Assembly: GCA_016841825.1 (NCBI GenBank)
Contig: JAENYK010000015.1
Coordinates: 1 to 64,000 of the forward strand
Direction: 5' to 3'
Length of the DNA stretch: 64,000 nt
DNA from: Halothermothrix sp.
GTDB taxonomy: Bacteria; Bacillota; Halanaerobiia; DY22613
In this document: positions 836 through 41,419 of the stretch, piece after piece
How the letters are laid out: each line of letters starts with the position of its first letter
How positions within the stretch are numbered: the first letter of the stretch is position 1
Notes under the pieces: model-generated
Seen by the model: the letters and a program-made list of their open reading frames with translations, nothing else
Databases searched by the model: none
Told to the model about the DNA's origin: nothing
Program-made: the position numbers and the translations under genes

Positions 836-2797
836 CTACTTACCTCGCGTCATATTTTTCCAGAGTTCAGCAGCGCTTACTTCTTGCTTAGAGTCACCTC
901 TAAATAGATTAGTGTTTTCTTCTAGCAATTGTCTTCGAATGTGATGCCGATCTTCACGCTCTTGAGTAGCCTCCACAATTTTCTTTGAAGTCTCATTAAA
1001 AGGTGTTTGAAAGATTTGAATGATATTGCTGGATTTTTCAATTTGCATAGCTTCTTTCTCAGCCTTTTTACGCTCCAGTACCCTTTTAAGATCATCAGGT
1101 TGAACAACAAGTTCCTCCTGCATAGCTCTATATGATTTTGTTAAACTTTTGACTCTCTTCTTCTCTGAATTAGCTTTGCGATAATCTTCCTGAGTTGCAC
1201 CCCAGACCACTAGTTCTTTATTTTCTGCCTGACATAAAAACCTATCATTAAGATCAAAAACATAGATTTTTCCTAATTCCTCTTGATCATATCTTGCATA
1301 TACTTTCTGCCCTTGAAGCATTGAAATTTCCTCATTCCAGAACCAATGATCAAACAACCGAATACCATTTCTCTGAACTACCCTTGCTTCTGTTGTTTTC
1401 ATCATTAAGAGTTTCAAACTATCCTCACTAGTTGTCCTTTTCGTTTGAAGCTTGGAATAATAAATTTCATCTGGTGATTTCCCGTCCATGCCTGCTCCTT
1501 CATGTTCATGACAGTTGTAAATATTTTCAATGAACTCCTCATATAATTCTGCCAATTCTTCAATAGTCATCAGCTTATCTGGATTTTTCAAAATTTTATT
1601 CAATCGCTCCGGTCGCTCCATAATGTTCGCTCCACGATAACTTTTGAACCAGGAGGAAAACCATTCTCTAATTGTCCGAAAAGACCTCTCGATATGTTTT
1701 GACTTCGCGTTATATGGGATTGCAAAATGTGGTACTATATCAAAATGCGAGATCAATCCCTTTACCTGTGGTTCGTTCACTTCTACCCTTACCCCCGATT
1801 CTCGCCCTCCTGCAAAAGCTTTTGATCTATAGTCCTTTCCATTATCAATTAGAATCTCTTTCGGCACTCCATACTTCAGAACACCTCTTCGGAAGCTGGC
1901 TAGAATCGTATCTTGATTCGGTCCAAATGAGAGCAGCCACCCAACCATTTTTCGACTCCTGGCGTCCATCCAGACAGTCGCCCACGGGAAAGCTGGTTTA
2001 CCATTTGGACCTCTGACAGCCAGATCAAGTTGATTGTGGTCGGATACCCACAACTGGTTTGGTACAATACTATCATAATCTCTCATAATATATGGCTCAC
2101 AAGAGTCTGTGTACGCCTTTACACCTTCCCTGTAGAATATTAGTACTGGTTCTGGTATTCTTTGCTTCACAAGCCTCTGAACCTGACGCAAGGACGGAAT
2201 TGTCCAACCCATCTCCCCAGCTTTCATTTCAAGAAGGTCATAACACCTAGCAATGGTTTTTCTGGACTGATCCAAAAAAATGTATTTAAAAAATTCCCAG
2301 GCATCATCATCCATTTTGGTAATTCCTTTTCTTGACCCCCACTCGGGACAAAGTCCTGGTAGTCCATTTTCTCGATACGCTTTATCCCATCGATATAACG
2401 TTGGGCGAGATAGATTATCTTGTTTATTAGATGCGTTCCACAATTCCACAAACTTATCTGTAAGCTCAACTTTCTTTCCTTCATTACGCCGGAGGAATGT
2501 TCTCCATTGCTCTATGATCTGTAGCTTCTTGTGTGCTTCCTCCCTGCTGCTTTCAGGATATGTTTCAAAAATATTCTCCTGTGGTTGATTTAGCAATCCT
2601 AATTGCTTTCTCTTGTGATATTCAATTTGTGCAGGTAGTGGTAGAGTATTCAAATCAACCTGTATCGTTTTTCCTCCCCTTCCTAGACCATTATTATTTC
2701 TACTTTTTATTTCACCCGATCTTATCCTATATCGTATAGCTCTAGGTGTTAAGTCTAACAAATCAGATACAGTTTCAACAGAAACCCATTCGGACAT
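836..2797 (-). CDS. MuA-type DDE transposase
   Basis: A 653-residue transposase. The N-terminal 60 residues form the Mu-type winged helix (WVSVETVSDLLDLTPRAIRY). A catalytic core of the retroviral-integrase fold follows, with the expected acidic triad: Asp in WVSDHNQLDLAV, Asp in ILIDNGKDYRSK, and Glu in HIERSFRTIREWF. The C-terminal 200 residues are charged and match the Mu C-terminal region that contacts MuB. It would pair the element ends and carry out strand transfer. I chose the ATG at 2795-2797 because GAGGAGGG lies just upstream. An ATG 15 bases earlier overlaps the preceding stop but has no good ribosome-binding site. Length and triad suggest an intact enzyme. Confidence 0.88.
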   Translation of the reverse strand: MSEWVSVETVSDLLDLTPRAIRYRIRSGEIKSRNNNGLGRGGKTIQVDLNTLPLPAQIEYHKRKQLGLLNQPQENIFETYPESSREEAHKKLQIIEQWRTFLRRNEGKKVELTDKFVELWNASNKQDNLSRPTLYRWDKAYRENGLPGLCPEWGSRKGITKMDDDAWEFFKYIFLDQSRKTIARCYDLLEMKAGEMGWTIPSLRQVQRLVKQRIPEPVLIFYREGVKAYTDSCEPYIMRDYDSIVPNQLWVSDHNQLDLAVRGPNGKPAFPWATVWMDARSRKMVGWLLSFGPNQDTILASFRRGVLKYGVPKEILIDNGKDYRSKAFAGGRESGVRVEVNEPQVKGLISHFDIVPHFAIPYNAKSKHIERSFRTIREWFSSWFKSYRGANIMERPERLNKILKNPDKLMTIEELAELYEEFIENIYNCHEHEGAGMDGKSPDEIYYSKLQTKRTTSEDSLKLLMMKTTEARVVQRNGIRLFDHWFWNEEISMLQGQKVYARYDQEELGKIYVFDLNDRFLCQAENKELVVWGATQEDYRKANSEKKRVKSLTKSYRAMQEELVVQPDDLKRVLERKKAEKEAMQIEKSSNIIQIFQTPFNETSKKIVEATQEREDRHHIRRQLLEENTNLFRGDSKQEVSAAELWKNMTRGK

Positions 2798-2808
2798 TAT
2801 ATCCCTCC

Positions 2809-3003
2809 TCATTGAATAAATTGTTGTAAGGCTTCCTCACCCAAAATTTTAATCAATCCATTAATCACTTCCAAAGATGGTTTTCTTTCACCCCTTTCAA
2901 CCTTTGAATAATAGCTTTGTGTAACTCCTAATTTCTGAGAAACCTTAACTTGACTTAAACCATTCTTTTCTCTTAGTGCTTTCAAGGATATTTTTTCTTT
3001 CAA
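2809..3003 (-). CDS. Small Xre-family regulator, Ner-like position
   Basis: This 64-residue protein is essentially a single Xre/Cro helix-turn-helix (LREKNGLSQVKVSQKLGVTQ, then YYSKVERGERKPSLEV). It starts at a TTG (3001-3003) preceded by AAGGTGGTG and ends just inside the upstream end of the transposase frame, so it is almost certainly co-transcribed and translationally close to it. In phage Mu the equivalent position holds Ner, a small Cro-like protein that turns down the early promoter and the repressor promoter. That role is inferred here from size, fold and position. It resembles the divergent repressor at 3208-3546 in its recognition helix, so both may read related operators. Confidence 0.8.
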   Translation of the reverse strand: MKEKISLKALREKNGLSQVKVSQKLGVTQSYYSKVERGERKPSLEVINGLIKILGEEALQQFIQ

Positions 3004-3025
3004 TGACTATCACCACCTTCAAATT

Positions 3026-3188
3026 TAGTCCTATATGTACATTATATAGTCCTTTGAGGATTATTTCAAGTGTTTTATAGTCCTATTTGTACATTTTTTT
3101 CATCTATTTGTACATAAAATTCTTCTAAATCATTAGAAGGAGAATATAGTAGGTAGGCAGAATATTTATAATAAGTCCTATAAGGACT
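3026..3188. promoter_or_regulatory. Operator cluster between divergent Xre genes
   Basis: The 204-base divergent spacer contains recurring motifs. TAGTCCTATATGTACAT lies at 3026-3042 and TAGTCCTATTTGTACAT at 3078-3094. CTATTTGTACAT lies at 3104-3115 and TAGTCCTTT at 3047-3055. The dyad AGTCC-TATAA-GGACT at 3174-3188 lies about 20 bases before the repressor start. Direct repeats plus a dyad are typical of operators shared by a repressor and a Cro/Ner-like protein. The early leftward and repressor rightward promoters must lie in this spacer, but I did not assign -35/-10 boxes with confidence. Confidence 0.6.
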
Positions 3189-3207
3189 ACGAAAGAGGGG
3201 GAATACG

Positions 3208-3546
3208 ATGACTTTAGGTGAGCGTTTAAAGATTTCAAGGAAAAAGAAGGAATTAAGTTTAGCAAAAGTAGGCGAACATACTGGGGTAACTCAATCCTAT
3301 CTTTCAAAAATCGAACGTGGAACACGCCAACCGTCCTTAGATTTACTTCATGATCTATCTAAATTATATGAAGTAGATCTCAAGTGGCTGATTGAAGGAT
3401 TTCAACAAGAAACTAATAATGAATCTTTGTTACTTAAGAGGAAAAAAGAAGAGCTTGTCGAATTAATAAATAAAATAAATATTTCGGAAGATATCGACAA
3501 ACTTACTTTAATTGTCAGAGCATTCATTAAAGAGGGGAGGGATTAA
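3208..3546 (+). CDS. Xre-family repressor (Mu c / ImmR-like)
   Basis: A 112-residue protein with an N-terminal Xre helix-turn-helix at about residues 5-60 (RKKKELSLAKVGEHTGVTQ, YLSKIERGTRQPSLDLL). A lysine/glutamate-rich C-terminal helical region (about 65-112) could oligomerise. The ATG follows GAGGGGG closely. It is divergent from the transposase operon and shares the operator-rich spacer, so it is the likely lysogeny repressor. Its stop codon lies one base before the TTG start of the next small gene, so the repressor, the peptide and the TPR protein probably form one transcript. It has no peptidase motif such as that of ImmA-cleaved systems, so how it is inactivated is open. Confidence 0.82.
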   Translation: MTLGERLKISRKKKELSLAKVGEHTGVTQSYLSKIERGTRQPSLDLLHDLSKLYEVDLKWLIEGFQQETNNESLLLKRKKEELVELINKINISEDIDKLTLIVRAFIKEGRD

Positions 3547-3547
3547 T

Positions 3548-3718
3548 TTGAAACTACTTAAAAAAATCTTATCAATAATGTTGCTCTTTAGTTGTCTTGC
3601 AGTAGGGCTAGGCTTGACAAATAATTTAAACGCGAATGATATTCAGCTTAGAGATCAAGCTACAGATCCAGGAATTGTTTCTACTAATGCTCCGGGATTT
3701 GATGATGATGAAGAATAG
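3548..3718 (+). CDS. Small exported peptide precursor (candidate signalling peptide)
   Basis: A 56-residue protein starting at a TTG (3548-3550) right behind the repressor, with GAGGGGAGGG as ribosome-binding site. Residues 1-28 form a signal peptide: KLLKK, then a hydrophobic core ILSIMLLFSCLAVGLGLT. The remaining tail is short and acidic: NANDIQLRDQATDPGIV, then STNAPGFDDDEE. A basic start, one hydrophobic segment and a short C-terminal tail are the hallmarks of Phr/AimP-type pro-peptides that are secreted, trimmed and re-imported. Position directly before a TPR protein gene strengthens this. The mature peptide cannot be predicted from one sequence. It could also be an unrelated small secreted or membrane peptide. 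Confidence 0.65.
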   Translation: MKLLKKILSIMLLFSCLAVGLGLTNNLNANDIQLRDQATDPGIVSTNAPGFDDDEE

Positions 3719-3738
3719 CATGCGGAGGGGATGTTCGA

Positions 3739-4659
3739 GTGGAAATTCTAAATCGTGGGGATAAAAAATACTCTGAGCGTAAATTTTATGAAGCATTAGA
3801 GTGCTATTTAAAAGCTTTAAACAATTGTGATTACATAACTGATAGTAACTTGCATACAAATATTAGAGAAAAAATTGCAAGATCATATTATCGGCAAGGA
3901 AATTTTTCAGAAGCAATAAGACATTTTGAGATTCTAGAAGCTTGTACCTCTGGGGACCAACTTATTAAAATCATAACATTAAAGAGCGTTTGTTTCAATT
4001 TAATTGGTAAATTTACTGACGCCCTTAAATCCCTAAATAAACTAGACTCTATTAACAGTCCTCTAGCGGTTAGAAAACGTTTATTTACTCAGGGCACAAT
4101 TTTTTTAAGATTAGGTCAATACGTTACACCAGATTATCTTGAAAAGGCAGAAAACAGTTTTTTGGAAGTGGCTAATTTAACAGATGACTCTCAAGTTTTA
4201 CAAAAAACATATAGAAATTTGGGGACTTGTTATAATTTTTTAGGTAAATTTTGTAAATCTTTGAAATATTTAAATCAAGCACTAAAATTAACAGATAATG
4301 AGCATACAATTAGCTATACCTATCATGAATTAGCAAATACATATATAAAATTAGGTGACCTTAAGAAGGCTCTAGACCTTCTCCAATATTGTGAGAAGAT
4401 CGCTTCCTCTAACGACGACCATTTCGGGTTAGCTTACACTTTCATGAATTATGGGGAATACCACTTTGCTCAAAAGTGTTTATCGGAAGGAGAGAGCTCT
4501 ACCAACATAGCCATAGATAACTTTTTGAAATCTTTAAGTTTTCCTGAAATATCCTATTGCTATAAACTATTAAATCAATATTTTCACGCTCATGATTCAT
4601 CCAAAGCTCAAGTATACTTTCGAGAATATAATAGATTTAAATCAAAACTGGTAGTGTGA
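3739..4659 (+). CDS. TPR protein, putative peptide receptor (RRNPP-like, lacking HTH)
   Basis: This 306-residue protein is made almost wholly of tetratricopeptide-type helix pairs (for example RKFYEALECYLKALNNC, RQGNFSEAIRHFEILEAC, LGKFCKSLKYLNQALKL, LGDLKKALDLLQYCEKIA). It has no signal peptide, so it should be cytoplasmic. It starts at GTG 3739 behind GGAGGGG, since an ATG at 3731 is stopped after six codons. Such arrays form the peptide-binding domain of Rap, NprR, PlcR and AimR proteins. Here there is no fused helix-turn-helix, but one is encoded two genes upstream. I infer that it binds the exported peptide and modulates the repressor, as RapI-PhrI does for ImmR in ICEBs1. A general scaffold role remains possible. 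Confidence 0.72.
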   Translation: MEILNRGDKKYSERKFYEALECYLKALNNCDYITDSNLHTNIREKIARSYYRQGNFSEAIRHFEILEACTSGDQLIKIITLKSVCFNLIGKFTDALKSLNKLDSINSPLAVRKRLFTQGTIFLRLGQYVTPDYLEKAENSFLEVANLTDDSQVLQKTYRNLGTCYNFLGKFCKSLKYLNQALKLTDNEHTISYTYHELANTYIKLGDLKKALDLLQYCEKIASSNDDHFGLAYTFMNYGEYHFAQKCLSEGESSTNIAIDNFLKSLSFPEISYCYKLLNQYFHAHDSSKAQVYFREYNRFKSKLVV

Positions 4660-4803
4660 TTAACCTGGTTTTTATCGAAATTTTTTTTAAATTAATTTCC
4701 TTAGTCATTTCCTTAGTCTAGTTTCCCTTTTTTTACCATACATTTCTCCCGAACCTCCATAAAGTTAGTAATGAACAGGATTTGAAGAGGTTCAACAAAA
4801 CAG

Positions 4804-4877
4804 AAAATTTATCACGTCATTTGTCGTAAAACTTGCAAAAATGGAGTTATCCACAGACAGATGACGTGATAAATTTT
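4804..4877. repeat. Perfect 17-bp inverted repeat with 40-base loop containing a DnaA box
   Basis: AAAATTTATCACGTCAT at 4804-4820 is exactly the reverse complement of the sequence at 4861-4877. The loop carries TTATCCACA, which equals the consensus DnaA box. It may be a regulatory or end-binding site of the prophage. It is not followed by a T-run on the plus strand in a terminator-like layout, and the loop is too large for an ordinary terminator. Confidence 0.75.
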
Positions 4878-4895
4878 TTTCTCCATAAAACAACG

Positions 4896-4937
4896 AAACC
4901 CGAAATGTCGCGGTTTATCCCACGAAATCCCGGGTTT
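4896..4937. repeat. Short inverted repeat AAACCCG/CGGGTTT
   Basis: AAACCCG (4896-4902) pairs with CGGGTTT (4931-4937). ACGAAACCCG and ACGAAATCCCG also form a direct repeat within the same 45 bases. It could be the closing hairpin of the prophage transcript or part of the transposon end. The evidence is only the repeat itself. Confidence 0.4.
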
Positions 4938-5252
4938 TCTCATTTTATCATTCTATCCGTCACATTACAAGGATATTGCATAATTATCCTCCTCCACTAT
5001 CTGAGATATATTAAACCTGACCATAATTTTTATATTTAAAGAATCATTTTTTGTCAAATACCCTATGGTAAAAAGAGTACTATCTCTCCCCGATTGACAA
5101 ATCAGTACCCTTTATATATTCTGCCAGAGAACATTATATACTCATCTACTATGATTCATCCTCTTTCGTTCATTTTACATTATCTTACCATAATATATAG
5201 TAAAGATCAAATAATCAACCTGAATTGAATTAAAGATTAAACCATCTTTATT

Positions 5253-39772: not shown

Positions 39773-41419
39773 ATGAGTAGAAGATTTTTGATCCTGTGTT
39801 TAATGTTATTATTAGTGAGCAGTATTGCTTTGGCTGCAGATGGCCCTGAGTATGGTGGAAGATTTGTTGATACTGAGATTGGTGACTGGGGGGAAATGTT
39901 TAATCCAATCCTATATGAAGCTGCTTCTGATGGTGATATTATCGGCTTAGTGTTCAATGGTTTAGTTCAATATAACTCAAACTTAGAAATTATTCCTGAG
40001 CTTGCGGAAAAATTTGAGATCTCTGAAGATGGGTTAACTTATACCTTTTACCTACATAAAGGTGTTAAGTTCCATGACGGTCACGAACTAACTGCTGAAG
40101 ATGTTGCTTATACATATACTACTCTGGTTCATCCAGATTATACTGGTGTTCGAGGAGGGGACTTTTTATCTATTAAAGGTGCAAGAGATTTTAGAGATGG
40201 TAAAGCTGACTCTGTCGAAGGTATTAAGGTTATCGATGATTACACCATTCAGATTATTACTGAAGAGACTGACTCTGCTTTCTTAGCTGCCTTAACAATA
40301 GGTATTTTACCAGCACACCTGTTAAAAAATGTTCCTGTTGCTGAATTGGAGAATAACGAGTTCAACCGCCAACCAATTGGTACTGGTCCTTTTACTTTCC
40401 ATGAATATGTGAGTGGTCAATACTGGATTGGTAAAGCTTTTGATGATTATTTCCTGGGTCGTCCATATCTAGATGAGTATATGTATCGAATTGTAGCTCA
40501 ATCCTCTTTACCTATGTTATTTGAGAAAAGAGAGATTGATGTTGCTAGTTTATTACCAGATCATTTCAAGAAAGTCAAAGAACTGCCAACTGTTAAACCA
40601 TTTACTAGTCCTCGTTTCCAAATGTTATATATGGGGGTTAACCAAAAGAGTCCTAAATTTGTTAACAAACGTGTAAAACAAGCTTTGCTTTATGGTTTTA
40701 ACCGTGAAGTTATGGTTAACGCTATCTTCAAAGGTTTTGGTGAAGTTGCTCACTCTGTAATTCCAACTGTATCCTGGGCTTATAATGGTAATATGACAAA
40801 ATACAACTTTAACCAAATCACTGCTAGAAAATTATTAGAAGAAGCTGGTTATAACAAACTTGACAAAGATGGTATCAGAATGAATGCTGAAGGTCAAAGA
40901 CTAGAGATTGACTTCCTGTGCTATCAAGAGAATACTGCCATCACTAAGGTTGTTGAGCTTTATCAACAAATGATGAAATTGATCGGTGTTGAAGTTAACA
41001 TTACTATGATGGAATTTAATGCTCTATTAGACCGTGTATACAATCCAGATGGTTGGGACTTCTATATCATGTACTGGGGATTAACTCCAGACCCAGACTG
41101 GAGCTTTGCTCTCAAGAGTGATGCAGCCTGGAATGATGTATTCTTCGTTAACGAAGAAAGTGATCTACTTTTAGACGCCGGTAGAAAAGAACTAGATCAA
41201 GAAAAACGTACTGAGATCTATTATGAATGGCAAGAATTAGTTATGCAAGAACTGCCATACTACCCATTGATGTTCCCAACTGCCGCTACATGCTTAGATG
41301 TAAGAGTTCATGGCTACAACGAAAACCAAGGTCCTTTAGGTTTATTAGTTGGCCCAGAAGGTACTTTATATAATAAACTCTGGATTCCCAAAGCTGAACA
41401 ATTCCGCATTACTCAATAA
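39773..41419 (+). CDS. Extracellular solute-binding protein of a peptide-type ABC importer
   Basis: A 548-residue family-5 solute-binding protein (DppA/OppA type). Residues 1-22 are a signal peptide (RFLILCLMLLLVSSIALA), without a lipobox Cys at the cleavage site. Family text: YTFYLHKGVKFHDGHELTAE, DVAYTYTTL, PIGTGPFTF and a late DWSFALKSDA. AAAGGAGG precedes the ATG. It captures peptides or nickel/sugar-like solutes for the permeases that follow. The exact substrate cannot be told from sequence. Lack of a lipid anchor is unusual for a Gram-positive binding protein and would suit a cell with an outer membrane, but this is inference. Confidence 0.92.
   Translation: MSRRFLILCLMLLLVSSIALAADGPEYGGRFVDTEIGDWGEMFNPILYEAASDGDIIGLVFNGLVQYNSNLEIIPELAEKFEISEDGLTYTFYLHKGVKFHDGHELTAEDVAYTYTTLVHPDYTGVRGGDFLSIKGARDFRDGKADSVEGIKVIDDYTIQIITEETDSAFLAALTIGILPAHLLKNVPVAELENNEFNRQPIGTGPFTFHEYVSGQYWIGKAFDDYFLGRPYLDEYMYRIVAQSSLPMLFEKREIDVASLLPDHFKKVKELPTVKPFTSPRFQMLYMGVNQKSPKFVNKRVKQALLYGFNREVMVNAIFKGFGEVAHSVIPTVSWAYNGNMTKYNFNQITARKLLEEAGYNKLDKDGIRMNAEGQRLEIDFLCYQENTAITKVVELYQQMMKLIGVEVNITMMEFNALLDRVYNPDGWDFYIMYWGLTPDPDWSFALKSDAAWNDVFFVNEESDLLLDAGRKELDQEKRTEIYYEWQELVMQELPYYPLMFPTAATCLDVRVHGYNENQGPLGLLVGPEGTLYNKLWIPKAEQFRITQ

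Follow-up and report, generated by a model that had tools for sequence, protein, structure and literature searches.

A probable peptide-signalling pair in the immunity operon of a Mu-like transposable element

What is a small gene for an export-type peptide doing between a repressor gene and a TPR gene, at the place where phage Mu keeps its lysogeny repressor? The question is raised by a locus in the window (the whole 64,000-nucleotide stretch of DNA that was analyzed) in which an xre gene, a propeptide ORF, and a gene for a TPR-only protein follow one another head to tail, with 1 nt between the first two, 20 nt between the last two, and good ribosome-binding sites at all three. Our reading of the open reading frames and our domain searches confirmed the coordinates, spacing, and tandem order given in the original prediction, and the three genes form a tight operon (Table 1). 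We consider this trio to be the immunity operon of a Mu-like transposable element that has been extended by an RRNPP-type peptide-signalling pair, a reading to which we assign a probability of roughly 0.7.

The map of Mu runs from the element end through the c operon to the divergent ner, A, and B genes. The element in the window follows this map, with the c position filled by the repressor-peptide-TPR operon; this operon is divergent from the ner-like gene and MuA, and to the left of MuA, toward the contig start, lie a small HTH protein and then the edge of the MuB region (MuB being assigned by position). Domain searches together with comparisons of MuA and of the element end showed that the end of the element holds a MuA, a divergent repressor, and a ner-like gene, which supports both its Mu-like character and the predicted placement of the trio where Mu has its lysogeny repressor. 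The best named relative of this MuA belongs to BalMu-1, a Mu-like phage of a Firmicute (32% amino acid identity over 95%), but BalMu-1 has a single cI-like repressor gene (~225 aa) at this position and neither a TPR nor a peptide gene. Inverted repeats at 4804-4948 (22 nt, 95% complementary) adjoin the element end and are candidate transposase-binding sites.

The original prediction spoke of a Mu-like prophage, and the second half of that term is less secure than the first, since the contig starts inside the MuB side of the element, only ~5 kb of each copy is assembled, and this part shows no structural genes. The host genome (G000; 5.08 Mb in 43 contigs) holds a second copy at C35:1-4974 (locus L009), and the contig of the window and contig C35 both start inside the element, at the identical base, and match each other over 55 nt. 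A continuation of the element past the contig start was searched for in the host assembly and is absent from it; the shared remainder seems to have been dropped during assembly. A search of the genome for a Mu portal gave no match, as it did in the controls, the rest of the element lying outside the assembly, and the viral contigs scanned contained no close relatives of MuA or of the TPR protein. Because this remainder is missing, the element may be defective or a Mu-like transposon.

Table 1. Coordinates of the element's features in the window (a point in the strand column marks features given without a strand)
Feature	Position	Strand	Details
MuA-type transposase	836-2812	-	phrog_310 E=8e-127; DDE_2, Mu-transpos_C
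Candidate immunity cassette	2638..4790	.	block diverged between the window copy and the C35 copy
ner-like Xre protein, 64 aa	2809-3003	-	HTH_3 E=2.8e-16; directly before MuA, position of Mu ner
Operator-like word AGTCCTATATGTACA	3027..3041	+	AGTCCT word
Putative early promoter TTGAAA-N17-TATAAT	3041..3069	-	11/12 matches; reads into ner-like gene and MuA
Operator-like word AGTCCTTTGAGGATT	3048..3062	+	inside early promoter spacer
Operator-like word AGTCCTATTTGTACA	3079..3093	+	AGTCCT word
Perfect palindrome AGTCCT-ATA-AGGACT	3174..3188	+	upstream of xre gene
xre	3208-3546	+	ATG start, 112 aa; HTH_3 E=5e-14; occupies position of Mu c repressor
Exported propeptide ORF (predicted)	3548-3718	+	TTG start, 56 aa, LKLLKKILSIMLLFSCLAVGLGLTNNLNAN-DIQLRDQATDPGIVSTNAPGFDDDEE; ribosome site GGGAGGG
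Putative mature pheromone region STNAPGFDDDEE	3680..3715	+	kept in C35 while the remainder diverged
TPR-only receptor-like protein	3739-4659	+	GTG start, 306 aa, 16 helices; TPR_12 E=1.4e-20
Element end	4790..4976	.	conserved, last bases ...TCACATTACA; identity to C35 stops at 4976; 22-nt inverted repeat at 4804-4877

Between the divergent genes, AGTCCT words at 3027, 3048, 3079, and 3174 form four repressor-like putative operators. The C35 copy has none of these words and instead carries ATATTCCTA words at 3044, 3084, and 3156. The early promoter hexamers and their spacing are identical in the two copies, and in each an operator word stands just before the -10 element (AAGGACTA in the window, TAGGAATA in C35); the two copies hold different but complete operator sets.

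Comparison of the copies shows that this divergence extends well beyond the operators. DNA identity of 82 to 100% falls to 45 to 58% from about codon 58 of MuA to about position 4790 (54% for MuA 1-58, 52% for the ner-like gene, 45% for the operator region, 58% for xre, 50% for the peptide ORF, and 54% for the TPR gene), whereas the flanks are conserved, with 87% identity at the element end and 92% in the region left of MuA. The two MuA proteins have 85% amino acid identity overall, with the divergence concentrated in residues 1-58 and an abrupt change thereafter. A diverged block between conserved flanks looks like a swapped immunity cassette, which here would include the peptide and TPR genes. 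The presence of the MuA N terminus inside the block fits this view, since in Mu this part of the transposase and the repressor bind one and the same operator region. The complete reading frames are all open in both copies, with 45 to 85% protein identity, and because the C35 copy retains the same genes, order, and spacing at 45 to 47% protein identity (Xre and TPR proteins) together with a conserved peptide tail, the arrangement of the trio is not due to chance. The two copies, which appear to be heteroimmune, offer a natural specificity experiment in which repressor, operators, and receptor are swapped while the peptide tail is related.

We examined each of the three products in turn for features of known signalling systems. 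In structure comparisons, the HTH part of the Xre model is closest to SinR, DdrO, ICEBs1 ImmR, and the repressor of phage phi106, with an rmsd of 0.9 over 61 columns to ImmR (7t8i). The TPR protein is predicted to be all helical, with 16 helices in regular succession (pLDDT 95.9) and TPR-type helix pairs from residue 2 onward; the N-terminal three-helix bundle of Rap-type proteins, which carries their effector contacts, is absent from the model. No HTH was matched in the TPR protein, and none is included in the 25 Pfam families found most often in 35 relatives, so that the domain searches agree with the prediction of a receptor-like TPR protein that lacks an HTH of its own and is paired with a separate Xre protein.

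Neither AimR nor any other known receptor-family model matched the TPR protein, and its PDB profile match to the TPR regulator chain 5dbk (2e-14) was weaker than those to many unrelated TPR proteins. When solved structures were ranked by E value, LGN-type TPR proteins came first; by TMq, the model scored 0.69 against Rap-pLS20 with Phr (6t46), 0.5 to 0.64 against LGN, and 0.75 against TONSOKU. Because the 6t46 match lies above LGN and below TONSOKU, the predicted fold is compatible with a Rap-like receptor but is not proof of one, and many unrelated TPR proteins match the protein equally well or better in both sequence and fold. A viral structure library returned distant TPR proteins only, mostly from giant viruses; relatives were absent from the GTDB contigs scanned and from named phages, and plasmids yielded a single CHAT-TPR protein at E=2e-4. 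A defence-system reading of the TPR protein was considered and rejected, as it drew generic TPR matches only. The operational signature of RRNPP systems is a receptor of 250 to 500 aa with TPR repeats adjacent to a propeptide of 10 to 100 aa that has a Sec signal peptide (PMC10075063); the TPR protein, at 306 aa, has the size and the repeats, and a 56-aa propeptide lies beside it.

The N terminus of this propeptide is basic and hydrophobic by a hydropathy rule, which was used instead of SignalP for all signal-peptide calls reported here. An ORF with such a predicted signal peptide lies beside the receptor gene in both the window copy and the C35 copy (L009:3539-3706), as anticipated, on the same strand and upstream of it. 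The signal parts of the two element propeptides are hardly alike, and their ends are kept (STNAPGFDDDEE versus TTNGPAYDDDESN, with the conserved tails STNAPGFDDDE in the window and TTNGPAYDDDE in C35). One host propeptide, on C43, has a similar tail (TTSNWPGFSED; shuffle p ~0.01, which is the limit of 100 shuffles, in 1 of 31 comparisons), and the tails of other host propeptides are only loosely alike in type.

The host chromosome contains many more such pairs. A profile of the TPR protein gave 48 matches in the host and 26 in a related genus of the same family (G001), and the 57 other genomes of the class yielded no strong relatives at E<=1e-20 with the single protein or at E<=1e-25 with the profile; as judged by these sequence searches, the radiation is confined, within the class genomes examined, to the host and its one family-mate. 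Of 47 well-matched TPR genes in the two genera, 28 have an adjacent same-strand signal-peptide ORF, which lies downstream within ~60 nt in 23 cases and upstream in 5, 2 of these being the element's own, and the remaining 19 paralogues have no adjacent peptide ORF. Most host propeptides are thus downstream of their receptor genes, whereas those of the element are upstream in both copies. Under a stricter rule, a peptide ORF was found on either side of 26 of 60 TPR genes versus 3 of 55 control genes (Fisher p=3e-6) and directly downstream of 25 of 60 versus 0 of 55. The original prediction had raised the question whether a small signal-peptide ORF is always found between an Xre and a TPR gene; the association of peptide and TPR gene held in both element copies and in 28 of 47 paralogues, and an Xre gene is near ~10 of the host cassettes.

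Many TPR genes of the radiation are followed by signal-peptide ORFs of 40 to 70 aa with an acidic, proline-containing tail (radiation loci in the two genera include L016, L029, L062, L064, L066, L067, L071, L073-L076, and L079-L081). The putative mature parts of 32 peptides contain 12% proline and 173 D+E versus 24 K+R in 1,027 residues. Tandem units occur in paralogous peptides, with (GPTAPIE)x4 and DPQNGGDEPF units on C22, and GPIEQP-type units accompany orthologous receptors of the two genera (L016 and L029); RRNPP propeptides are known for carrying the mature peptide in tandem copies (PMC9765709). Some receptors are peptide-less in both genera (e.g., L005/L026 and L008/L022), so some members of the TPR family may not be quorum sensors. 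These dozens of host receptor-peptide pairs, with their near-uniform format and repeat-containing propeptides, apparently constitute an undescribed receptor-pheromone family in this bacterial family, as we found no description of them in the literature searched, and they make a new radiation of peptide signalling directly testable. In a tree, both element TPR proteins share one long branch that lies within the radiation; the receptor family belongs mainly to the host chromosome, and it is from this radiation that the element probably acquired its module.

Xre genes of 170 to 183 aa lie within 1.5 kb of ~10 host TPR loci, usually on the opposite strand (a raw count), and most of the host Xre proteins beside TPR or TPR-peptide genes have two HTH domains. 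Host loci with an Xre protein of ~175 aa include L020, L025, L028, L031, L053, L055, L069, and L083. There is a hint that two short helices recur, in a loose pattern, at the ends of both the host and the element Xre proteins, a part that the element Xre model renders with low confidence.

Peptide-guided lysogeny is known from SPbeta-type phages of Bacillus, and peptide-guided transfer is known from a plasmid and an ICE. Here a Mu-like element shows this logic at its immunity locus, and its host lineage is anaerobic and far removed from Bacillus. The trio had been described as RRNPP or arbitrium-like, and the RRNPP-like logic is upheld; the arbitrium comparison is less apt, as AimR has its own DNA-binding domain, and the closer parallels are Rap-Phr pairs that act with a separate Xre repressor. 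The arbitrium system (AimR-AimP-AimX of SPbeta-type phages) resembles the present one in combining a phage-type element with a small peptide for export and with a TPR receptor, which would here be expected to control lysogeny, but AimR binds DNA itself, and searches gave the TPR protein in the window neither an AimR family match nor a relative in the phage collection. In pLS20, a conjugative plasmid of Bacillus subtilis and thus likewise a mobile element, neighboring genes (rco-rap-phr) encode a separate Xre repressor, a TPR protein without a DNA-binding domain, and an exported peptide; Rap binds directly to Rco, the Xre repressor, and Phr breaks up this complex and restores repression (PMC3814332, PMC7430634). 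The present element differs in being a Mu-like transposer, in having the peptide gene between repressor and receptor, and in having a receptor of TPR helices only. In ICEBs1 (ImmR-RapI-PhrI), a TPR protein and a peptide likewise control how an Xre immunity repressor is antagonized, and the HTH of our Xre protein is close to that of ImmR; unlike ICEBs1, the present cassette shows no ImmA-type protease gene, and its three genes form one operon. Since a Rap-Phr pair already acts with a separate Xre repressor in pLS20 and ICEBs1, the "split" arrangement named in the original prediction is not new in itself. The statement that no such module was known on a Mu-like phage fared better: our literature search found no paper joining RRNPP with Mu-like elements and, as far as titles and abstracts tell, none reporting an arbitrium module on a transposable phage.

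By analogy with these systems, the element probably decides on dormancy by sensing neighbors that carry the same element. The Xre protein would bind the operators, repress the early promoter of ner and MuA, and keep the element dormant, with repressor, receptor, and peptide made from one transcript in lysogens. The propeptide would be exported, and its acidic, proline-containing C-terminal tail would be cleaved outside and then brought into cells by Opp-type importers, while the cytosolic TPR receptor would contact Xre; free TPR protein would most likely be an anti-repressor, and the returned peptide would block it, as in pLS20. Where carriers are common, the peptide would return, the receptor would be blocked, and the element would stay silent; where carriers are rare, the receptor would weaken the repressor and MuA would be expressed. 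We infer export and cleavage, uptake, both binding steps, and the sensing of density by lysogens from the known systems. As to polarity, we lean toward a peptide that favors dormancy, and the opposite polarity is a serious possibility.

Several other explanations of the trio deserve consideration. The peptide and TPR protein may be a true signalling pair aimed at a host regulator (of sporulation, competence, or similar) and merely located beside the repressor, which would suit the largely chromosomal distribution of the TPR relatives, many without an Xre neighbor, and the presumption that Rap-Phr pairs of Bacillus phages act on host pathways (PMC10075063). We regard this as unlikely, because the pair shares the repressor's operon, at distances of 1 and 20 nt, and has diverged together with the repressor, the operators, and the MuA N terminus in one block.

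A still less probable alternative is that the small ORF encodes a membrane-active protein (holin-like, type I toxin-like, or for superinfection exclusion) and that the TPR protein acts either as a chaperone or as an accessory repressor subunit. The hydrophobic N terminus on its own would suit a small membrane protein, but it is this hydrophobic part that diverges and the hydrophilic C-terminal tail that is kept, the reverse of what would be expected, and the tandem-repeated tails of paralogous peptides are typical of pheromone precursors. Least probable of all, and very improbable in our view, is that the element is a Mu-like transposon, decayed or not of phage kind, and that the trio survives in it as a relic that no longer functions; the short assembled length of each copy and the portal search without a match (controls likewise) would be in keeping with decay, yet the reading frames remain open at the protein identities given above, and operator sets that differ between the copies are complete in each. 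An immunity operon extended by a peptide-signalling pair remains our preferred reading. More tentatively, and at slightly less than even odds, we suggest that a transposable phage took a receptor-pheromone pair from the large radiation of its host lineage into its immunity operon, in which case heteroimmune relatives would differ in pheromone specificity and phage and host peptides (tails TTN-x-P-x-x-D-D-E) may cross-talk.

Some further observations concern the surroundings of these loci. The C35 copy adjoins a repetitive array (L009:5760-13966) in which YD-repeat (RHS-like) genes are interleaved with similar 267-aa genes. At L072 (G000:C14:242747-247781), five TPR paralogues stand in tandem, and a single small peptide ORF separates two of these. 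Opp-family binding proteins are present in both genomes (G000 and G001), and a gene for a substrate-binding protein of this family (PF00496) lies in the window at 39986-41110.
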